Assembly: GCF_900119915.1 (NCBI RefSeq)
Contig: NZ_LT635455.1
Span: 1,302,001-1,366,000, forward strand
From: Olsenella timonensis
GTDB taxonomy: Bacteria > Actinomycetota > Coriobacteriia > Coriobacteriales > Atopobiaceae
Direction of reading: 5' to 3'
DNA length: 64,000 bases
Both the position numbers and the translations under genes were made by a program. Below the pieces are notes generated by a model, which was not told the DNA's origin, did no database searches, and saw only the letters and a list, made by a program, of their open reading frames with translations. Below, piece after piece: positions 29,482 to 57,405 of the stretch. Each line of letters begins with the position of its first letter. Within the stretch, counting starts at the first letter, position 1.

Positions 29482-29557
29482 TGGAGCGGGCTACGGGGTT
29501 CGAACCCGCGACCTCAACCTTGGCAAGGTTGCGCGCTACCAACTGCGCTAAGCCCGC
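29482..29557 (-). tRNA. tRNA-Gly (GCC)
   Basis: Acceptor GCGGGCT/AGCCCGC, D arm GCGC/GCGC, anticodon loop CTTGCCAAG giving GCC, T loop TTCGAAC, discriminator T, encoded CCA; 76 nt. The same sequence occurs again at 29954-30029. Confidence 0.96.
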
Positions 29558-29570
29558 GACGCAAGGAGAC

Positions 29571-29599
29571 ATGATACGGGAAGAGTCTCCGCGGCGCAA
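29571..29599 (-). promoter_or_regulatory. Promoter of tRNA-Gly (first copy)
   Basis: TTGCGC (29594-29599), 17 bases, TATCAT (29571-29576) on the minus strand. Confidence 0.6.
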
Positions 29600-29677
29600 G
29601 AGGTTTTTTCTCGCGGCGCGCTCCCGCACGGGCGACTCGGACGGTCGCTCTTCTCGCCCCGCTCGCCCAGGACCCGA

Positions 29678-29752
29678 TTAACACGCAGAATCCGGGTTTG
29701 TCCGAGAAGTTCCCTGCGGATATACGGGACTTAACCTGATTCTGCATGTTAA
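29678..29752. repeat. 75-bp palindromic interspersed element, copy 1
   Basis: Outer arms TTAACACGCAGAATC and GATTCTGCATGTTAA pair at 14 of 15 positions. The interior holds CCCTGCGGATATACGGGAC and TTAACCTGATT. A second copy with the same order of blocks is at 60217-60294. The rest of 29558-29842 shows only promoter and terminator signals. Confidence 0.75.
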
Positions 29753-29808
29753 TGTCAGGCGCTTCCACCAGGAGGGTGCCGTGAGGACCCGGATGGTCGT
29801 CCGGCATG

Positions 29809-29833
29809 AAAAAGGGCGCCCCGAAGGGCGCCC
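29809..29833 (-). terminator. Terminator of tRNA-Gly/tRNA-Cys operon
   Basis: Stem GGGCGCCC with GGGCGCC(C), loop CCGAA region, followed on the minus strand by TTTTTCATG, 10 bases after tRNA-Cys. Confidence 0.88.
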
Positions 29834-29842
29834 GTCACGGTC

Positions 29843-29916
29843 TGGAGGCGAAGCCCGGATTCGAACCGGGGGTCAGGGCTTTGCAGGCCCGTGCCTTACC
29901 ACTTGGCCACTTCGCC
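29843..29916 (-). tRNA. tRNA-Cys (GCA)
   Basis: Acceptor GGCGAAG/CTTCGCC, anticodon loop CCTGCAAAG giving GCA, T loop TTCGAAT, discriminator T, encoded CCA; 74 nt. Transcribed after tRNA-Gly with 37 bases between. Confidence 0.95.
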
Positions 29917-29953
29917 GTATGAAAAAGGCCGATGTGCTCGGCCCGGAGCTGCA

Positions 29954-30029
29954 TGGAGCGGGCTACGGGGTTCGAACCCGCGACCTCAACCTTGGCAAGG
30001 TTGCGCGCTACCAACTGCGCTAAGCCCGC
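29954..30029 (-). tRNA. tRNA-Gly (GCC), second copy
   Basis: Identical in sequence to 29482-29557. First gene of the Gly-Cys pair. Confidence 0.96.
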
Positions 30030-48242: not shown

Positions 48243-50216
48243 TCACTCCCCTCCCGCGGGGCCCTCGGCGCCCGCGTCCCTCTCTGCCGGCCCCTCCGGG
48301 CCCAGCTCGTGCAGCGCCTGCCACACGGCGCGCGCCACCTCGGCGGGCACGCCGGGCGTCTGCGCGATCTGCTCCTCGCTCGCGGCGCGCAGGCGCCTGA
48401 GCGAGCCGAACCTCCTCATGAGCGCGCGGCGGCGCTTGGGGCCCACCCCCGGCACGTCGTCGATCACCGAGCGCGTCATCGCCTTGTCGCGCAGCTCCCG
48501 GTGGAACGTGATGGCAAAGCGGTGCGACTCGTCGCGCACCTGCTTGATGAGGTAGAGCGACGGCGAGCCGCTCGGCAGCACGACCGGCGTGTCGTCCCAC
48601 GGCACGAAGATCTCCTCGTCCGACTTGGCGAGGCCGCACACGGGGATGTCGAGCCCCAGCTCCTCGAGCTGCGCCGTCGCCGCCGTGAGCTGTGGCTTGC
48701 CGCCGTCGACGACGAGCAGGTCGGGACGGCGCCCAAAGCGCTCGTCGGCCATGCGCTCCGGGGAGTAGCGCCTCCCCAGCACCTCCGACATCGAGACGAA
48801 GTCGTTGGCCTCGGTGAGCGGCGTCTGGATCTTGAAGCGCCGGTACTGGGACTTGTCCGGCCGCCCGTTGGTGAAGACCACCATCGACGCCACCGTAAAG
48901 TGGCCGTGGAGGGTGGAGATGTCGAAGCACTCGATGCGCATCGGCGGGGCGTCCAGCGCCAGCGCGCTCTCCAGCTGGAGCAGCGCCTGGTTCGTACGCT
49001 CGTCGGCATAGCCGGTCTTGACCATGTGGCGCATGAGCGCGTGCCGGGCGTTGGTCGCCGCCATGTCGAGCAGGTGGCGCTTCTCGCCGCGGCGCGGGCG
49101 GTGGAGGTGCACCGGCCGCCCGCGCTTCTCGGAGAGCCAGCCCTCCAGGACCTCGGCGTCGGAGAGCTCGCAGTCGAGGTCGACCTCAGCCGGGAGGTCG
49201 GCCGTCTCGTCGTAGTAGCGCTTCAAAAAGCCGCCGACCAGCTCCTCCTCGCCCACGTCGAGCCCCTTGTCCAGGATGAACTCGACGGAGCGCACCGTGC
49301 GGCCCTCGCGGACCACGAAGACGCAGGCGCAGCTTATGGTCTCCTCGCGGTAGATGCCGATGAGGTCGGCGCTCACGTTGGACGAGAAGACCACCTGCTG
49401 GCGGTCGTCGAGGGCGTCCAGCCCCTCGAGGCGCGCCTTGAGGCGACCCGCTCGCTCGAAGTCGAGGTTGGCGGCGGCCTCGCGCATCTGGTCGGTCAGC
49501 TCGCCGACGATCGCGCGGCGGTTGCCGGCGAGGAAGCTCTCGACCTGGCGCACGTGGCGCGCGTACTCCACCGTGTCGATCATGCCGGCGCACACGCCGG
49601 GTCCGCGCCCCACGTGGTAGTCGAAGCAGGGGCGGCAGCGCTGGGCGAGGACCAGGTTGGCGACGGCCGCCTGCGACGGGTCGCGGTCGAGGACGCGCTT
49701 GGCGCGCTTCCACTCCGCGCAGGTCGCCATGCAGATGGGCACCACCTTGCGCAGGGTGTCGATGGTCTCGCGGGCAGCACGGGCGTCGGTGTAGGGGCCG
49801 AAGTAGCGCGTCCCCTTGCGGTGACGCTCGCGCGTGTACTTGATCGCGGGGAAGACGTCCGACTCGGTGATCGCGATGAAGGGGTAGCTCTTGTCGTCCT
49901 TGTAGTCGACGTTGAAGTAGGGGTGGTACTGCGCGATGAGGTTGCGCTCCAGCACGAGCGCCTCGTGCTCGGAGCCCACGACGACGTAGTCGAAGTCGCG
50001 GACCACCTGCATCATGAGCGGGATCTTCTCGCGCTCGTCGGAGAGCGTCACGTACTGGCGCATGCGCGCGCGCAGGCTCTTGGCCTTGCCCACGTAGACG
50101 ACCTCGCCCCTCGCGTCCTTCCAGAGGTAGCACCCGGGCTCGGTGGGGACCTGGGCGACGCGGGCGGCGAGAAGGTCGAGGTGGTCGTCGGGGATGTCGG
50201 CGGCGGGGCCGGGCAT
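48243..50216 (-). CDS. uvrC: Excinuclease ABC subunit UvrC
   Basis: 657 residues. GIY-YIG nuclease at the N-terminus (PTEPGCYLWKDARGEVVYVG, ~25-45, with KAKSLRARMRQY) makes the 3' cut. A cysteine-rich stretch follows (CRPCFDYHVGRGPGVCAGM), then the UvrB-binding UVR motif (~210-240), an RNase H-like nuclease (RIECFDISTLHGHFTVASMV, LLVVDGGKPQL) for the 5' cut, and a helix-hairpin-helix pair near 590-625. Full length. It starts one base after the femX stop codon. Confidence 0.97.
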   Translation of the reverse strand: MPGPAADIPDDHLDLLAARVAQVPTEPGCYLWKDARGEVVYVGKAKSLRARMRQYVTLSDEREKIPLMMQVVRDFDYVVVGSEHEALVLERNLIAQYHPYFNVDYKDDKSYPFIAITESDVFPAIKYTRERHRKGTRYFGPYTDARAARETIDTLRKVVPICMATCAEWKRAKRVLDRDPSQAAVANLVLAQRCRPCFDYHVGRGPGVCAGMIDTVEYARHVRQVESFLAGNRRAIVGELTDQMREAAANLDFERAGRLKARLEGLDALDDRQQVVFSSNVSADLIGIYREETISCACVFVVREGRTVRSVEFILDKGLDVGEEELVGGFLKRYYDETADLPAEVDLDCELSDAEVLEGWLSEKRGRPVHLHRPRRGEKRHLLDMAATNARHALMRHMVKTGYADERTNQALLQLESALALDAPPMRIECFDISTLHGHFTVASMVVFTNGRPDKSQYRRFKIQTPLTEANDFVSMSEVLGRRYSPERMADERFGRRPDLLVVDGGKPQLTAATAQLEELGLDIPVCGLAKSDEEIFVPWDDTPVVLPSGSPSLYLIKQVRDESHRFAITFHRELRDKAMTRSVIDDVPGVGPKRRRALMRRFGSLRRLRAASEEQIAQTPGVPAEVARAVWQALHELGPEGPAERDAGAEGPAGGE

Positions 50217-50217
50217 G

Positions 50218-51186
50218 CTACTTGAACAGCTTCCGGTACAGCTTGAGGGCGGCGTCCCAGACGTGGTAGAGCGGCGAGAGCGGCCGGTCGAACGACCCCA
50301 CCCACACGGTGGGCTCGCCGGCGAAGAGCAGCTTGAAGGTGCTCACTCCGCCCTCGAGAAGGCCGTTCAGGTCGTAGAGCCGCGACCCCGCGCGCTTTGC
50401 GGCGACGATGGCCTCCCACTTGAGCAGGTAGTTCGCACGCAGCCGCTTCCCCTCGTCGGTCACGCCGCCCCACAGCTCGAACGCCGTCCCGGACGTGGCC
50501 ACGTTCCACAGGAAGGCGAGCGCGCGGCCCTCGAGCTCGGCGACGAAGACCTGGTTGACGTCGTCGCACGCCGACATCGCCGTGCGATAGTACTCGTCGG
50601 GGTGCAGGGCGAACTCGTCGGCGTCTGCCGTGTGGTGGTAGATGTCGAGAATCGCGTCGAGGTCCGCCTCGGTCGCTCGGCGCACGGCGACGCCCGAGCG
50701 GGCCGCCTTGCGGATGTACTGGCGCGCCTTCTTGGAGTGGAGGCCCGCCATGATCTCCTCCTCGGTGGGGGCGAGGTCGATCGCGGCGGTGCGGGGCAGC
50801 AGGACCTTCTCGGAGCGCTCCCAGCGGTCGCCGAGCGAGAGCTCGCCCTCCCTCACGGCCGGGTCGATCTTGAGGGAGACGGCGGACAGGTTCTCCCGGC
50901 ACCACTCGGCGACCTCGTCGGCCACCTCCGGCAGGAGCTCGGGCGAGGCGACGGGGCCGCGCGGGGCGTAGCAGATGTGGCCGAAGGGCCACGGGAGCCT
51001 GCGTACGAGCACCTGGCAGGCCCCGTCGACGCGGCCGTCGCGCTCGACCACGATGCGGCGCGCCGTCCACGAGCCCGTCCGCTCCTTGAGCTCGCCCCAT
51101 CCCCATGCCTGCATGGGGTGCCCGCCCCGCTCGTCGACGAGCGCGTCCCATTCCTCGGCGGACGTGACCTCGCGATACTCTGTCAT
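50218..51186 (-). CDS. FemX/FemAB-family peptidoglycan bridge aminoacyltransferase
   Basis: 322 residues, two GNAT-like domains. It takes amino acids from aminoacyl-tRNA and adds them to lipid II to build the peptidoglycan crossbridge. Motifs are HPMQAWGWGELKERTGSW near the N-terminus, KKARQYIRKAARSGVAVRRA (~150-170), and LRANYLLKWEAIVAAKRAGS plus YDLNGLLEGGVSTFKLLFAG near the end. The coiled helical arm of FemA is lacking, as in FemX and MurM. 104 bases from its start, on the other strand, is an abnormal tRNA-Thr-like gene, which might be its donor. It heads the femX-uvrC-nanE operon. Confidence 0.92.
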   Translation of the reverse strand: MTEYREVTSAEEWDALVDERGGHPMQAWGWGELKERTGSWTARRIVVERDGRVDGACQVLVRRLPWPFGHICYAPRGPVASPELLPEVADEVAEWCRENLSAVSLKIDPAVREGELSLGDRWERSEKVLLPRTAAIDLAPTEEEIMAGLHSKKARQYIRKAARSGVAVRRATEADLDAILDIYHHTADADEFALHPDEYYRTAMSACDDVNQVFVAELEGRALAFLWNVATSGTAFELWGGVTDEGKRLRANYLLKWEAIVAAKRAGSRLYDLNGLLEGGVSTFKLLFAGEPTVWVGSFDRPLSPLYHVWDAALKLYRKLFK

Positions 51187-51247: not shown

Positions 51248-51275
51248 TTGCATCAACTCGACACACCGCTATACT
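51248..51275 (+). promoter_or_regulatory. Promoter of the tRNA-Thr-like gene
   Basis: TTGCAT (51248-51253), 16 bases, TATACT (51270-51275), 15 bases before the tRNA 5' end. A strong sigma-70 type promoter. Confidence 0.7.
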
Positions 51276-51290
51276 GGGGCACGCTTGCAC

Positions 51291-51365
51291 GCCGATGTAG
51301 CTCAACGTCAGAGCACCGGTCTTGTTTTCCGGGGACGCAGCGTTCGACTCCTGCCATCGGCTCCA
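51291..51365 (+). tRNA. tRNA-Thr (TGT)-like gene with altered D, anticodon and T arms
   Basis: 75 nt with CCA. The acceptor GCCGATG/CATCGGC is perfect, D stem GCTC/GAGC is perfect, anticodon loop CTTGTTT reads TGT (threonine), T loop TTCGACT is normal, and CCA is encoded. Abnormal: the D loop (AACGTCA) lacks the G18-G19 pair; position 37 is T rather than a purine; pair 31-39 is T-T; the T stem must bulge one C (GCAG-C-G against CCTGC) to form. It is a free-standing gene with its own promoter and terminator. It is either a decaying tRNA-Thr or one specialised for a task outside translation. Confidence 0.75.
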
Positions 51366-51374
51366 TGCGCTTCT

Positions 51375-51396
51375 CGGCCGCTCGCGCGGCCTTTTT
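51375..51396 (+). terminator. Intrinsic terminator of the tRNA-Thr-like gene
   Basis: GGCCGC, loop TCGC, GCGGCC, then TTTTT, starting 10 bases after the CCA. Confidence 0.92.
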
Positions 51397-51424: not shown

Positions 51425-53152
51425 CTACTCGCTCACATAGCGCCAGATCGCGACCTGCTCCCCGGTCTGCGTGGTCTCGCCGAGCGTCTCGACGCGCTCG
51501 GCGCGCACGTCGGAGCCCGTGTGCTCCGTGAGGTAGGCGGCGATGAGCTCCGCCTGGCTCTCGTAGCTCGCCGTCACCATGTCCTCGCTGTCCACGAGGT
51601 TGGCGAGGTATCCCTTGCGCGAGAGGCCGGAGCGCTCGAGATAGGTCTGCCACGACGGGGTGTAGTACTCGTAGCCGCCGATGAAGACCGCGTTGTCGGG
51701 CTGCTCCCAGGCATCGAAGGCGAAGACGTCGTCGTTGGTGAGGATGCCCTGGGTCTGCGTGAAGAGCACCGTCGTGTCCGCGTTGTCCGCGAGGTACGCC
51801 TCCGCGGCGGGGGTGAGGTCGTTGGCGAGCGACGCCTGCAGCGGCCGGACGTAGGTGAGCCAGAGCAGGCCCAGCACGCCCGCATACGCCAGCACGCCCG
51901 CAACGGGCACCACGCGGCCCAGGAAGACGCCCTCGGCGCGCCCCTCCTCCCCCTCCTCGGGGACGAGGCAGCACACGACGAGCGCGAAGAGCGCCACGAC
52001 GAAGACCGGGAGGAAGACGTGGATCTTCAGGCGGGCACGCAGGAATATGAGGAGGAACTCGAGAAGGGCGAGCACGGGCACGGAGAGCGTGAGCGCGAGC
52101 GCGGCCCCCCTGTGGCGCCGAGACGCGCAGACGTAGCCCGCGGTGGCGAAGAGCACCACGATGAGCCCGAGCGCGAACGCGGTGAACGACGGGCGGGCGA
52201 GGATGGCCCCGAGCATCGTGTCGAGCCCATAGCCGCTCACCACCTCCCCGACCCTCTGGAAGGTCTCCAGCGAGAAGGTGTCCTCGTCCACGAACAGGAA
52301 GCCGTAGATCATGTCGACGTCGGTCTGCGAGAGCTCGGGCGCGACGCGCTGAACGTCGGCGTAGTCGACGACAGGGTAGTCGGCGATGGAGCGCGCGGCG
52401 TCCGCGGTCTGCTCGAACTCCTCCCAGCCGGGGGTGTGGTGCCAGGCGAGCATGCCCGCCGCCCAGGACAGCCCAACCGCCGCGACCACGCCGAGCGCCA
52501 TGAGCATCGTGCGAGCGTTGCGGTTGCGCGCGAGCGCCCACGCGAGGAAGGGCACGAAGAGCGCGAGCGCGGCGAGGCCCGACTCCGGCCGCAGCGAGAA
52601 GCCCTCGACGATGAGGGCGAATGCGAGGACGTCGGAGGCGCGGAGACCCTCGGGCCGGCAGAACGCCGCGCGCCGCAGCACCAGCGCGACGCCCGCGGCG
52701 AGGGCCAGGAACGCGACTATCGTGTAGGTGAGGTAGACCGTGACCATGACCTCGCAGAGCAGGAGCGCGCAGAGCAGGAAGACCGTCAGCGGGGTGCGCA
52801 CGCGAGCGAGGAGGACGATCGCGCCCATGACCGCGAACGAGACCGCGATGAGGGCGAGCAGGGAGAGCGGGTACCACGGCACGGACGGCGCGAGCGCGTA
52901 GAGCCCCGCCAGCGGCGCGCTGTACCCGACGAGGGAGTAGAGCATCAGGAACCCCGGGGTGTCGAAGTAGGCCCCACGGGCGTACAGGTCCTGCATGAAG
53001 TCGTCGGGCATGGCGTACTTGGGCGCCTGCACCAGGCAGACGAGTGCGACGATCGCGACGGAGACGGCCAGGCAGGCGACCACCTGCCTCCAGGACGCCC
53101 GGTCGGCGGCCGGTTCCGGAGAGTTGCTCAGATGCTTGGCGACGCTTGTCAT
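51425..53152 (-). CDS. Polytopic membrane protein, GT-C-like architecture
   Basis: 575 residues with about 11-12 membrane helices (first ~25-45, last ~420-440) and a C-terminal extracellular domain of ~130 residues (ADNADTTVLFTQTQGILTND). The first outer loop, after helix 1, has KYAMPDDFMQDLYARGAYF, with paired aspartates where GT-C glycosyltransferases carry their catalytic acid. I do not recognise the family. It may add a sugar to a wall polymer, given the neighbouring envelope genes. The ATG at 53152 follows GAGAGGACCGAGC. Coded opposite to the ATP-grasp gene. Confidence 0.72.
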   Translation of the reverse strand: MTSVAKHLSNSPEPAADRASWRQVVACLAVSVAIVALVCLVQAPKYAMPDDFMQDLYARGAYFDTPGFLMLYSLVGYSAPLAGLYALAPSVPWYPLSLLALIAVSFAVMGAIVLLARVRTPLTVFLLCALLLCEVMVTVYLTYTIVAFLALAAGVALVLRRAAFCRPEGLRASDVLAFALIVEGFSLRPESGLAALALFVPFLAWALARNRNARTMLMALGVVAAVGLSWAAGMLAWHHTPGWEEFEQTADAARSIADYPVVDYADVQRVAPELSQTDVDMIYGFLFVDEDTFSLETFQRVGEVVSGYGLDTMLGAILARPSFTAFALGLIVVLFATAGYVCASRRHRGAALALTLSVPVLALLEFLLIFLRARLKIHVFLPVFVVALFALVVCCLVPEEGEEGRAEGVFLGRVVPVAGVLAYAGVLGLLWLTYVRPLQASLANDLTPAAEAYLADNADTTVLFTQTQGILTNDDVFAFDAWEQPDNAVFIGGYEYYTPSWQTYLERSGLSRKGYLANLVDSEDMVTASYESQAELIAAYLTEHTGSDVRAERVETLGETTQTGEQVAIWRYVSE

Positions 53153-53296
53153 GCTCGGTCCTCTCGACACACCATCCCTTCACATCTTATCGAATCGAAC
53201 CGAGGCCGGTCGACGGGGCGGGCACTGGGCTACAATCGGGACGCAAGCGCGCGCCCGCCGAGCCGGCGCGCGAGTCCCTCGGACGAAAGATCTCCC

Positions 53297-54535
53297 ATGG
53301 CATCCTCGCCCTCTCGAACCGACTTCCTCCCCGTCGTCCTCGGGGGCGACATCGGCGCCTACGCTCTCTGCCGTGAGTTCCACGAGGCGTACGGCATGCG
53401 GCCCGTCATCATGAGCACCGGCTTCATCGGCGCCATCGCCCACTCGAGGATCCTCGCGACATGCCCCGTTCCCGCGCTCGCGCGCGAGGAGCTCCTCGAG
53501 GCGCTCGGTCGCGTCGCAGACGAGCACCCCGGGACGATCATCCTGCTCGTCGCCAACACCGACCCGCTCATCGAGCTGCTCGAGGAGATCGCCGACGAGC
53601 TGCCCGAGCGGGTGGTCTGCCCCATCCCGCCCAGGCACGCCTTCGACTCGGTGTGCGACAAGGGCGTCTTCACGCGCCTGTGCCGCGAGCACGGGCTCGA
53701 CACCCCGCGCACCGAGGTGGTTCGACTCGCCGGGGGCGACCCCATCGCCCCGAGCGAGATTCCCTTCCCCGTCGTGGCGAAGCCCGCCGTCTCCGCCGGC
53801 TACTACCCCACGCTGATGAAGGGCTTCAAGAAGGTCTACTACGCGACCGCGCAGTCCGAGCTCGACGAGCTGTGGCGCGACCTGCGCGCCTCGGGCTTCG
53901 ACGGCGACTTCCTCGTCCAGGAGCTCGTCGGCGGGGACGACACCTACATGGACTCGCTCACGCTCTACATCGGCGGCGACGGGAGGGCGCGGCTGCTCGG
54001 CGCGGCGCAGGTGCTGCTCGAGGACCACGCCCCCGCCATGCTCGGCAACCCGGTCGCCATGGTCATCCGCGAGAAGCGCGAGCTGTGGGAGCGCGCCGCC
54101 GCACTGCTCGCGGACGCGGGCTACCGCGGCTTTGCCAACTTCGACGTCAAGCGCGACCCCAAGACCGGTCGCGAGCTCTTCCTCGACTGCAACCCGCGCA
54201 TCGGGCGCAACTCCTACTACAACGTCGCCGGGGGCGTGAACCCGATGGAGGTGCTCGTCCGCGACGTCATCGACGGCGCGACGGACGAGGTCCGTGTGGC
54301 GGCGGACGAGGCCCTCTACACGCTCGTCCCCGTCTCGCTGCTTCGGCGCTACGTGCGCGACGAGGCGCTGCTCGCCGAGGTGGACGGGCTGATCCGTCGC
54401 GGGAGGGTCTTCGACCCGCAGCGCTACGACCGCGACCGGGGGCTTCGCCGCCTCATCGACGTCGAGCTCACCGAGAAGAACCACATCCGCAAGTTCGCCC
54501 AGTACTACCCCAAGCCCACCGACACCTCCTTCTAG
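53297..54535 (+). CDS. ATP-grasp carboxylate-amine ligase
   Basis: 412 residues. An N-terminal pre-ATP-grasp domain (FLPVVLGGDIGAYALCREFH) and an ATP-grasp fold (~120-330) with FPVVAKPAVSAGYYP, FLVQELVGGDDTYMDSLTLY, and the metal-binding ELFLDCNPRIGRNSYYNVAG. It forms a peptide-like bond between a carboxylate and an amine. The D-aspartate ligase of Enterococcus, which adds D-Asp to the peptidoglycan stem, is a family member, so a wall-precursor role is plausible given FemX and MurJ nearby. The start is at 53297 with a GAAAGA site. It is followed 18 bases later by the PLP enzyme. Confidence 0.82.
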   Translation: MASSPSRTDFLPVVLGGDIGAYALCREFHEAYGMRPVIMSTGFIGAIAHSRILATCPVPALAREELLEALGRVADEHPGTIILLVANTDPLIELLEEIADELPERVVCPIPPRHAFDSVCDKGVFTRLCREHGLDTPRTEVVRLAGGDPIAPSEIPFPVVAKPAVSAGYYPTLMKGFKKVYYATAQSELDELWRDLRASGFDGDFLVQELVGGDDTYMDSLTLYIGGDGRARLLGAAQVLLEDHAPAMLGNPVAMVIREKRELWERAAALLADAGYRGFANFDVKRDPKTGRELFLDCNPRIGRNSYYNVAGGVNPMEVLVRDVIDGATDEVRVAADEALYTLVPVSLLRRYVRDEALLAEVDGLIRRGRVFDPQRYDRDRGLRRLIDVELTEKNHIRKFAQYYPKPTDTSF

Positions 54536-54553: not shown

Positions 54554-55741
54554 ATGGCCGACCGTCGCACCACGCTCGACGAGCTTCGCGAGGCGTTTGC
54601 CCGCAGGACGCGCACCGAGGCGCGGGACTGGTTCCCCGTCTTCAAGGCCCGCTACGGCATGCGCGAGGTCTTCCGCGCCGCGGCCGACGTGCACGGCGCC
54701 GGGCAGGTGGTCACCACGCTCTTCACCGGGTGCACCGCGGTCGACTCGATCTTCTCCGCCGGGCTCTCCGCCCGCTACGACGCCATCGACCCCGCCACGC
54801 TCACCGTGGACGTCCGCGCGCTCTCCCTGGACGAGTCGGTCCGCGCCGTGATCATCCAGAACTCCTACGGCATCATCGACGAGCGCGCGAGCGCCGAGGC
54901 CGCCGCCAAGGCGCACGACGCCGGCGCGCTCTTCATGGAGGACAGCGCGCACTGCGTCACGCGGATGGCGCGCGACGCCGAGGGGCGCCCGCTCGCCGAC
55001 GTCTCGATCCACTCCCTCGGCATCGAGAAGCAGTTCTCCATCGGCTTCGGCGGCCTCGTGTGGGTGAGCCCCGACATGCCGGACGCTGCGCTGCGCGAGC
55101 GAATCGTCTCGGCGCTGGGGTCCCTCCCCGAGCCGCCCGCGCGCCTCAGCCGCAACGCCCGACGCTATCGGACGCAGAACCGCGTGCTCGCCCACCTGCC
55201 CGGTTCGCTCGGCCCCGCGCTGCGCGCCTGGCTGACCTCGTCGGGCGGCCTCGAGCCCCCCGTTGCGGCAGTGGAGCAGCGCGGCGAGCTCCCCTACCCC
55301 TCCTATCTGCCAAGCGACGAGATCGCGCACAGAATCCTCGCCGCCCTCCCCGGCATCGACGATGACGAGGCCGTGCGGAGGCTCTGGGTTGCGGGCTACG
55401 CCGACGCCCTCGAGGGCGAGGACCGGCTCTCCATCCCCCGGGGGGCGCTCGAGGTGGGCCGCACCCAGCCCCTCACCCGCTTCCCGATAGTCCTCTCCGA
55501 CGAGCCGCGCGCCCGCGCCCTCATCGACGACCTCCGCTCGCACGGGTTCTACTGCGTGGACTGGTATCGGGTGCCCTTCTATCCGGGGGCGACCGAGCTC
55601 TCCGCCTATGGCGTCTCGGAGGCAGACCAGGCATACCGCGACTTTCGGAGCACCTACGGGGGCATCGTGGGACTGCCCACCGACCTCGACCCCTCGCGCA
55701 TGGCAGAGGCGCTCGAGATCGTGCGCGGACACCTCGGCTAG
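54554..55741 (+). CDS. DegT/DnrJ/EryC1-type PLP-dependent aminotransferase
   Basis: 395 residues, aspartate-aminotransferase fold. The PLP-ring aspartate is in ALFMEDSAHCVTRM (~135), and the Schiff-base lysine is in IHSLGIEKQFSIGFGG (~160). TTLFTGCTAVDSIFSAGLSA is the phosphate-cup region. Relatives put amino groups on nucleotide-linked sugars or act in wall polymers. It is encoded with the ATP-grasp ligase and likely provides or shares its amine substrate (inference). Ribosome site GAGAGGGGACGCAC. Its last 4 bases overlap murJ on the other strand. Confidence 0.85.
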   Translation: MADRRTTLDELREAFARRTRTEARDWFPVFKARYGMREVFRAAADVHGAGQVVTTLFTGCTAVDSIFSAGLSARYDAIDPATLTVDVRALSLDESVRAVIIQNSYGIIDERASAEAAAKAHDAGALFMEDSAHCVTRMARDAEGRPLADVSIHSLGIEKQFSIGFGGLVWVSPDMPDAALRERIVSALGSLPEPPARLSRNARRYRTQNRVLAHLPGSLGPALRAWLTSSGGLEPPVAAVEQRGELPYPSYLPSDEIAHRILAALPGIDDDEAVRRLWVAGYADALEGEDRLSIPRGALEVGRTQPLTRFPIVLSDEPRARALIDDLRSHGFYCVDWYRVPFYPGATELSAYGVSEADQAYRDFRSTYGGIVGLPTDLDPSRMAEALEIVRGHLG

Positions 55742-57405
55742 CTGCTGCGACGCGCAGCGACCCTTCCGATCTTCTCGAACAGGGCATCGAAGAACGGGGC
55801 CTCCGAGCGGTGGCAGAGGTGCGCCGTCCCGAAGCACGCCACGAGCGCCGCCGCACCGCCGACCAGGGTGTAGGCGAGGTTCGCGAGAAGCCCCTCCGCC
55901 GGGCCGAGCAGCGCGCTCAGGCCCGCGAGGACGGCGCCGCCGGAGATCGCCCCCAGCAGGCCGAAGCCGAGGGCGTGCAGCGACGAGACGACGACCGAGC
56001 GCATCCCGAAGGGGCCAATCTCGCGGCGGACGGACACGAAGGAGATCACGTCGACCGCGATGAACAGGAACGTCGAGCTGAAGGGCACGACGTAGAGCCC
56101 GTACATCGGCGTGAGGACGATGCAGAAGGCGACCTGTATCGCCGAGGCGACGACCGTGGCGAGCGCATAGATCCTCATGCGCATGAGCGACGAGCATATC
56201 TTCTGGAAGTAGGTGGAGACGCCGTAGAAGGGCAGCGCGATGGCCTGGAACTGGAGATAGGTCGCCGTGAGCTGGGCGTCGTGCGCGTCAAAGCCGCCGA
56301 TGACGGCGATGAGATAGGGCGCGAACACGACGAGCAGCAGGGTGCAGGGGATCAGCGTGAAGGCGATCTTGCGTATGCCCGAGGCGACGGTGTGGCGATA
56401 GGCGTCCATCCTGCCCGCCACGCGATAGTTCGAGAGCTCGGTGAACATGGTCGTCGAGATGGGGATCGCCAGGATCGAGTACGGCAGCACGTACCAGACG
56501 CGCGAGTAGTACGCGATGGCGGCGCCGTTGGCGGTCACCTGGAGCGCGCAGGAGGACTGGACGGCGTTGGTGGGGAACGAGGCGAAGGTCACGACGAGCG
56601 TGGGCAGCCCGATGGCGAGTGTCTCGCGCAGCGCGGGGTCGTGCAGGTTCACGCGAAAGCGCAGGCGCACGCCGTGGCGGCGAAGGGCCGGCAGCTGGAT
56701 GAGCACCTGCGACGCCACGCCGAGGGGGTTGCCGACGGCGAGGACGATGAGCGCCTGGTCCCACGCCATCGTCCCGGAGTTCACCAGGTACGCGTAGATG
56801 GTGAACGACGCGATTGTGATGACGTTGTTCAGGATGGGCGCGGCGTTGCTCCAGACGTAGTCCCGCTCGGCGTTGAGGACTCCCGAGATGACCGAGGAAG
56901 CGCCGTAGAGCATGACCTCGAAGGCAAAGAACCGGAAGAACCAGACGGCGAGGTCGAAGTCGAACTCCGAGCTCGCACCCGCCGACTGCGTCCACACGAG
57001 CGGCACGGCGAAGACGAGGCACAGGACCGACATGGCGCCCATGGCGAGAAGCACGAGCGAGAGGAGGTTGGAGGCGTAGTCCGCGGCGCCGTCGTGCCCG
57101 CGCCGGCGCCTCACCGAGAGGTAGACCGGGAGGAAGGACGTGATGAGCATCCCGCCCATGACGAGCTCGTAGAGGAAGTTGGGGAGCGTCGAGGCGACGG
57201 TGTAGCAGCTCGCAACCGACATGAGCGCGCCCGAGAGCGCGTTGGCCTGGGCCATCGTCCGCCCGAACCCGGTGATACGGCTCGCGATGATGAGCAGGCT
57301 CGCGCCGTTGGCCTTGCGCGCGGCGAGGCTCTCGACCTCCTCCTCGCTCTCCTCGCCGACGACGGAGTCCGTCTCTAGCGGCGCTCTGCCCCTCTCCTCC
57401 GCCAT
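55738..57405 (-). CDS. murJ: Lipid II flippase MurJ (MviN family)
   Basis: 555 residues with a cytoplasmic head of ~35 residues (ETDSVVGEESEEEVESLAAR) and 14 membrane helices. Motifs are LLIIASRITGFGRTMAQANA, ASTLPNFLYELVMGGMLITS and FLPVYLSVRRRRG in the N-terminal lobe. It carries lipid-linked peptidoglycan precursors across the membrane. It follows the NlpC/P60 gene after 3 bases, so the two are one operon. Convergent with the ATP-grasp/DegT pair. Confidence 0.92.
   Translation of the reverse strand: MAEERGRAPLETDSVVGEESEEEVESLAARKANGASLLIIASRITGFGRTMAQANALSGALMSVASCYTVASTLPNFLYELVMGGMLITSFLPVYLSVRRRRGHDGAADYASNLLSLVLLAMGAMSVLCLVFAVPLVWTQSAGASSEFDFDLAVWFFRFFAFEVMLYGASSVISGVLNAERDYVWSNAAPILNNVITIASFTIYAYLVNSGTMAWDQALIVLAVGNPLGVASQVLIQLPALRRHGVRLRFRVNLHDPALRETLAIGLPTLVVTFASFPTNAVQSSCALQVTANGAAIAYYSRVWYVLPYSILAIPISTTMFTELSNYRVAGRMDAYRHTVASGIRKIAFTLIPCTLLLVVFAPYLIAVIGGFDAHDAQLTATYLQFQAIALPFYGVSTYFQKICSSLMRMRIYALATVVASAIQVAFCIVLTPMYGLYVVPFSSTFLFIAVDVISFVSVRREIGPFGMRSVVVSSLHALGFGLLGAISGGAVLAGLSALLGPAEGLLANLAYTLVGGAAALVACFGTAHLCHRSEAPFFDALFEKIGRVAARRSS

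Follow-up and report, generated by a model that had tools for sequence, protein, structure and literature searches.

In Staphylococcus aureus, three of the five tRNA-Gly species carry UU or CU in place of G18-G19 together with pairs that favour weak EF-Tu binding, such as A51-U63, and they are described as tRNAs thought to serve wall synthesis (PMC4052509, PMC9976931, PMC4810233). The FemX ligase of Weissella viridescens, by one account, discriminates among its donors partly by acceptor pair 2-71, and the same account regards the diversion of aminoacyl-tRNA from protein synthesis to wall ligases as somewhat unclear in most instances (PMC4052509). The wall of Olsenella uli is given as A4-beta, L-Orn-D-Asp (PMC3035265), and for lactic acid bacteria D-Asp is described as being added by an ATP-grasp ligase (AslA) and L-residues as coming from aminoacyl-tRNA (PMC4155827).

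The locus considered here lies in a stretch of 64,000 nucleotides of Olsenella timonensis DNA, the whole of which is referred to as the window, and consists of an atypical tRNA-Thr gene next to femX. On comparative sequence evidence we consider it likely that the gene encodes a threonine-specific tRNA dedicated to FemX, a cell-wall donor rather than a decoder, and the observations that speak to this are the anatomy of the tRNA, its conservation, stem covariation, linkage to femX and co-occurrence with it, a conflict between the histories of FemX and uvrC, and the drift of base 34. An earlier sequence-only reading had proposed that this tRNA supplies threonine to FemX; the comparative evidence supports that proposal, at whose biochemical core stand charging, escape from EF-Tu, use by FemX and the composition of the bridge, all of which we infer. 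The features of the locus are given below, counts out of eight referring to the tRNA-bearing genomes.

48243 to 50216, minus strand: uvrC, a housekeeping neighbour used as a yardstick for descent (Pfam; homologue near all eight loci).
50218 to 51186, minus strand: femX, predicted FemABX-family peptidoglycan ligase of 322 aa that uses aminoacyl-tRNA (PF02388, 96.5 bits; S. aureus 6snr, E 1e-13; Weissella FemX 1ne9, E 8e-11, residues 22-306).
51248 to 51275, plus strand: promoter-like TTGCAT-16-TATACT (8 of 12 consensus bases; absent from the output of a strict scan).
51291 to 51365, plus strand: atypical tRNA-Thr, anticodon TGT (51323-51325), encoded CCA (51363-51365) (ARAGORN and Rfam RF00005, 48.2 bits; similar tRNA in seven other genomes).
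51304 to 51310, plus strand: its D loop, AACGTCA, with G18 kept and G19 changed to U (direct reading; the genome's own normal tRNA-Thr has AATGGCA).
51337 to 51354, plus strand: its T arm, with a bulged C (51341) and an A51-U63 pair (bulged base in seven of eight genomes).
51376 to 51396, plus strand: intrinsic terminator, six GC pairs followed by T5 (hairpin and T run found by script in six of eight genomes).
53297 to 54535, plus strand, start approximate: ATP-grasp-like ligase, proposed partner for the next crossbridge residue (NCBIfam carbamoyl-phosphate-synthase-like, E 1.3e-9, far under the model cut-off).
55738 to 57405, minus strand: MurJ lipid II flippase (PF03023, 180.6 bits; homologue near seven of eight loci).

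ARAGORN and Rfam both called a tRNA at 51291-51365, ARAGORN assigning it to threonine by its TGT anticodon, and together with direct reading they bear out the perfect acceptor stem, the anticodon and the encoded CCA that the sequence-only reading had described in this cloverleaf; all acceptor positions of the window copy are paired. The same reading had held that the D loop lacks G18-G19, which stands for G19 but not for G18: the loop is as long as that of the normal tRNA-Thr, so that G18 is retained and the loss is limited to G19. The T at position 37 and the bulged C in the T stem were seen again on direct reading, and the minimum-energy fold is a cloverleaf with the same bulge and a nine-base anticodon loop (z-score -1.3, with 15 of 200 shuffles folding equally well). 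That loop, which results from a U31xU39 mismatch, and a variable loop of four bases are features that had gone unmentioned. With U37 no t6A is possible. The T stem has A51-U63, as against G51-C63 in the normal tRNA-Thr. Among the 52 Rfam tRNA matches of the genome this one has the bottom score (48.2 bits, the next being 50.6), and it is the sole tRNA without GG in the D-loop stretch, the other 51 all having it. The proposal stood to fall if a sequencing error had produced these oddities or if the genome held no other TGT-reading tRNA-Thr. The same type of tRNA occurs in seven further genomes, so that sequencing error is very unlikely, and a normal tRNA-Thr(TGT) is present in the same genome (L022:109-183), whose normal threonine set covers TGT, GGT and CGT. 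The atypical gene is thus an extra isoacceptor, and in the four of eight genomes that were read a normal TGT copy was seen each time, the others being Enorma massiliensis, Collinsella tanakaei and Collinsella ihumii. Elsewhere in the window (29482-30029, minus strand), two tRNA-Gly(GCC) genes of equal Rfam score flank a tRNA-Cys.

BLAST with the locus over 60 genomes, that of O. timonensis included, recovered two congeners (G005 and G006) in which the same tRNA, with its oddities, lies beside femX. A covariance model built from these three tRNAs (R1) puts some 40 bits between atypical and normal tRNA-Thr. Across 31 genomes of the genus, three reach 108-109 and in 28 a copy scores 64-67, with GG and A37 present in each of the 24 such copies that were read base by base; FemX (E 1e-30) is found in exactly the same three genomes. 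Extended to 395 Coriobacteriales genomes, the search gave FemX in 19 (E <= 1e-25) and an R1 match in seven (E <= 1e-17), all seven with FemX, and an eighth atypical tRNA, that of C. tanakaei, was found by reading FemX flanks. The conservation in related species on which the sequence-only reading had suggested a check takes the form of eight carriers in 395 genomes, each with FemX; 376 genomes have neither at the thresholds used. The carriers are O. timonensis itself, Olsenella sp. An270 (G005), an uncultured Atopobiaceae (G006), Enorma massiliensis (G219), Collinsella massiliensis (G220), an uncultured Coriobacteriaceae (G222), C. ihumii (G180) and C. tanakaei (G204), and their FemX proteins are at least 60% identical to that of the window, the eleven others being at most 59% identical. 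The Fisher value for the order is 5.5e-12, a figure that takes no account of kinship and should not be read as a probability. The strict R1 threshold missed C. tanakaei, so that a genome without FemX could likewise contain a highly diverged copy that escaped the search.

The flanks of the other eleven FemX genes (up to 9 kb per side, less at contig ends) contained no tRNA over the Rfam cut-off, and the best R2 match in each of these genomes, several of which are incomplete and in which the lower matches were covered at most in part, was a normal tRNA-Thr in nine and another tRNA in two (G098, G031). ARAGORN alone reported one doubtful tRNA-Leu, in the L108 FemX flank, and at a relaxed score it made 894 calls in 23 loci and was uninformative. 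With no such tRNA found in 11 of 19 FemX genomes, FemX as a family does not appear to need it. R2 over 396 genomes from the phylum gave the atypical tRNA only in G000, G219 and G204; the remaining matches at E 1e-16 (G003, G019, G025, G660 and the normal copy of O. timonensis itself) are normal tRNA-Thr. An extra 46-bit match in G021 was rejected as a tRNA-Gln. Nor was there any blastn match at E 1e-5 among 72,556 plasmid and 50,697 phage records, on which ground an origin on a mobile element or plasmid was rejected. Two observations were made alongside these searches. Bifidobacterium colobi, whose FemX is 60% identical to that of the window, has an extra odd tRNA-Thr(CGT) (L240 1501-1576, minus strand) with U37, a weak anticodon stem, encoded CCA and the D-loop GG kept, clustered with a Leu-TAG and a second, ordinary-looking Thr-CGT; this tRNA may be a dedicated one of independent origin. 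Among the matches from Saccharibacteria, FemX homologues of about 40% identity are frequent, and a tRNA-Ser(CGA) of ordinary appearance often lies 4-5 kb off (e.g. L178, L198, L210, L222, mostly Saccharibacteria).

The sequence-only reading had put femX 104 bases from the tRNA on the opposite strand, and the start of femX at 51186 agrees with this. The two genes are divergent and 100-133 bases apart in six of the eight genomes, and lie 3.8 kb apart in C. ihumii, with two genes between, and 4.4 kb apart in C. tanakaei, with three. Of the promoter and strong terminator that had also been claimed, the terminator was found, and the promoter-like hexamers are present but make a fair match that the strict scan did not return. 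A promoter-like site 12-15 bases upstream of the tRNA is the best or joint-best match in seven genomes, the window included, a ranking made without a shuffle control; a promoter was searched for in C. tanakaei and none was found. The terminator hairpins differ in sequence among the six genomes that have them. A tRNA transcribed away from femX, with a promoter-like site and terminator of its own, might be an uncharged-tRNA sensor or an antisense regulator of femX and not a substrate at all, yet the distances in the two Collinsella species, and an acceptor stem that is wholly paired (G-U counted) in seven of eight copies, make such a regulator extremely improbable.

Among the eight atypical tRNAs, G1-C72, C2-G71, U73, CCA, G35 and U36 are invariant, so that the parts read by threonyl-tRNA synthetase (G1-C72, C2-G71, G35, U36), which the sequence-only reading had noted as kept, are kept in all eight genomes; the identity rules applied here are those of E. 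coli, which we presume to hold. At base 34 four genomes have T, three have C and one has A, the last of these being unusual in bacterial tRNA-Thr. That base 34 varies while the threonine identity bases stay fixed is as expected if selection acts on charging and not on decoding; by these predictions the charging determinants hold and the decoding features drift. G18 is kept and G19, which a decoding tRNA would be expected to have, is lost in all eight, and U37 and U31xU39 are found in seven. All cloverleaf pairs are present in seven. The copy of C. tanakaei has a broken T stem and one broken acceptor pair; that of C. ihumii has a normally paired anticodon stem and A at position 37, and its predicted fold is something other than a cloverleaf. 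Over seven distinct sequences, standard pairs fill 96.4% of the pair cells, a value reached by none of 500 shuffles, and sliding controls each pair fewer than half of the cells; double changes were seen in five cells at three of 20 pairs, as many being reached by 23 of 500 shuffles.

These comparisons allow two further explanations to be weighed. The gene might be a decaying tRNA-Thr duplicate that lies near femX by chance, as its lowest score among the tRNAs of the genome, the broken T stem of C. tanakaei and its faster change would suggest (73-79% identity among E. massiliensis, C. tanakaei and C. ihumii, as against 95-97% for their normal tRNA-Thr). However, decay does not account for odd features common to eight genomes of two families, for compensatory stem changes, for fixed threonyl-tRNA synthetase identity bases or for a promoter-like site at about one distance in seven genomes and terminator hairpins of differing sequence in six, and we regard it as very unlikely; the pseudogene reading was rejected for the group, although the C. 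tanakaei copy may be decaying and may itself be a pseudogene. Alternatively, the tRNA might still be used by the ribosome as a special decoder, for instance under stress, a reading to which the threonine anticodon in all eight genomes and the intact cloverleaf in seven are favourable. Against this, base 34 drifts to C and A, G19 is lost throughout with U37 and U31xU39 in seven, normal tRNAs for TGT, GGT and CGT are already present in the O. timonensis genome, and the presence of the atypical tRNA tracks FemX, all of which leaves a decoding role improbable.

The predicted FemX is the sole PF02388 gene found in its genome, scoring above the cut-off of that family, and aligns with the solved Weissella enzyme over nearly all of its length. 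By a rough count dN/dS is 0.14-0.58 over 21 pairs, which would place FemX under purifying selection. Asp209 is the only residue specific to the FemX of the tRNA clade; two C-terminal columns also differ, at positions where the other rows are cut. In 18 of 19 FemX genomes (17 of 18 flanks and the window) a homologue of the ATP-grasp protein lies no more than about 5 kb from FemX, and at E 1e-40 homologues occur in 278 of 395 Coriobacteriales genomes. The Pfam and NCBIfam scores of the protein fall under their cut-offs; the C. tanakaei homologue matches carbamoyl-phosphate synthase in phmmer (E 4e-7). Apart from uvrC and MurJ, the clusters of predicted proteins around the eight loci, some members of which bear Pfam or NCBIfam names, include an NlpC/P60-type protein at seven, a DegT aminotransferase at five and a YbaK-type deacylase at five. 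A YbaK/EbsC-type aminoacyl-tRNA deacylase gene adjoins the atypical tRNA in both Collinsella loci that belong to C. tanakaei and C. ihumii (L105 4711-5217 and L117 4238-4729). Between the tRNA and the ATP-grasp gene the window encodes a 581-aa protein (51425-53170, minus strand) that has homologues in three other tRNA-bearing loci and for which a Pfam or NCBIfam match was sought at E 0.001 and none found. E. massiliensis has a second ATP-grasp paralogue about 5 kb from femX (L118 14656-15972, minus strand), with 42% identity to that of the window.

When 31 FemX proteins were placed in a maximum-likelihood tree, those of the eight tRNA-bearing genomes formed one clade (support 96/89), so that co-occurrence may reflect few events; two Bifidobacterium FemX proteins (60-62% identity), which have no such tRNA near femX, fall outside it. 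Within the clade, the proteins of the window and of Olsenella sp. An270 group with those of Enorma, C. massiliensis and the uncultured Coriobacteriaceae at 99/95, with the congener G006 outside. UvrC of the window is 87% identical to that of G006 and 72% to that of Enorma; the corresponding values are 72% and 79% for FemX, 51% and 77% for the ATP-grasp protein. FemX and the ATP-grasp protein therefore reverse the order given by uvrC, from which it appears that femX and the ATP-grasp gene were probably transferred between families. The atypical tRNAs of the window and Enorma are 93% identical, as against 77% for their normal tRNA-Thr, yet the window copy shares more bases with that of G006 (72 of 75) than with that of Enorma (70 of 75), so that the FemX conflict is not repeated; these data fit joint travel of the tRNA with femX and do not prove it. 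G006 has a different ATP-grasp protein and almost the same tRNA, which suggests that the tRNA is tied to FemX and not to the ligase.

Our working model for a tRNA dedicated to FemX is as follows. Threonyl-tRNA synthetase, for which each of the eight carrier genomes has one thrS over the cut-off, would charge the tRNA via the retained G1-C72, C2-G71, G35 and U36. The lost G19-C56 contact, the T-stem bulge, A51-U63 and the nine-base anticodon loop with U37 would make it a poor EF-Tu ligand and a poor decoder, the bulge and A51-U63 being the features that suggest weak EF-Tu binding, and threonine would thereby stay out of protein synthesis. FemX would then attach the threonine to the third precursor residue (probably L-Orn or L-Lys) through its side chain, after which the neighbouring ATP-grasp ligase would add an acidic D-residue. 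Given the A4-beta wall of O. uli, the addition of D-Asp by an ATP-grasp enzyme and the supply of L-residues from aminoacyl-tRNA, FemX may insert L-Thr before the D-residue, so that what was an A4 L-Orn-D-Asp bridge would become Orn(Lys)-L-Thr-D-Asp/Glu. A tRNA linked to FemX might instead carry another amino acid, or bring threonine to a different acceptor, given that the identity rules come from E. coli and that the acceptor and donor specificity of FemX is not readable from sequence. We judge this unlikely: G35 and U36 are invariant, the tRNA lacks the G3-U70 pair of alanine, the C35-C36 of glycine and the long arm of serine, and the genome has the one PF02388 gene. A literature search largely outside subscription journals found no published threonine-containing wall or dedicated tRNA-Thr for these species; the paper on C. 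massiliensis mentions a unique Collinsella peptidoglycan type, which the accessible part of that paper leaves unnamed (PMC4149003).

A broader formulation is that of a two-part orthogonal cassette, in which this FemX clade and its threonine tRNA have been exchanged between families beside uvrC, the tRNA being no longer bound by the genetic code (its wobble base may be T, C or A) and under selection solely for threonylation and use by FemX; we regard the chances of this as close to even, inclining slightly in its favour. If it holds, this would be, to our knowledge, the first tRNA dedicated to the cell wall that serves an amino acid other than glycine, and the first seen to travel with its ligase. 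The linked tRNA and ligase, in eight natural copies, offer a comparative system in which fixed and drifting positions may tell what threonyl-tRNA synthetase, EF-Tu and FemX each need, and the tRNA itself is a scaffold expected to accept threonine while staying off the ribosome. The model predicts, in species already cultured, a threonine crossbridge that is unreported in the literature searched.

When set beside the known systems, the locus resembles the A4-type machinery with AslA in having an ATP-grasp-like ligase near FemX in nearly all FemX genomes, and departs from it in that an L-amino acid borne by a tRNA would precede the D-residue, the putative likeness to AslA being that of an ATP-grasp relation. 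The predicted FemX belongs to the same family as that of W. viridescens and matches it over nearly the full length, but the atypical tRNA-Thr has C2-G71, whereas that enzyme, for which we know of no dedicated tRNA, prefers Ala-tRNA with G2-C71. With the staphylococcal tRNA-Gly, substrate of FemX/A/B, the tRNA shares its status as an extra isoacceptor beside a normal set, a partial loss of the D-loop GG, A51-U63 and a FemABX ligase as partner (PMC4052509, PMC9976931). It differs from these tRNAs in its amino acid, its retained G18, its bulged T stem and its nine-base anticodon loop with U37, as well as in a base 34 that varies between species, in a gene that stands beside femX in six of eight genomes and in its Coriobacteria host. 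In the staphylococcal kind both G18 and G19 are replaced; with G18 kept in all eight copies, we do not file the tRNA-Thr described here as a member of that kind, although it would work like one.
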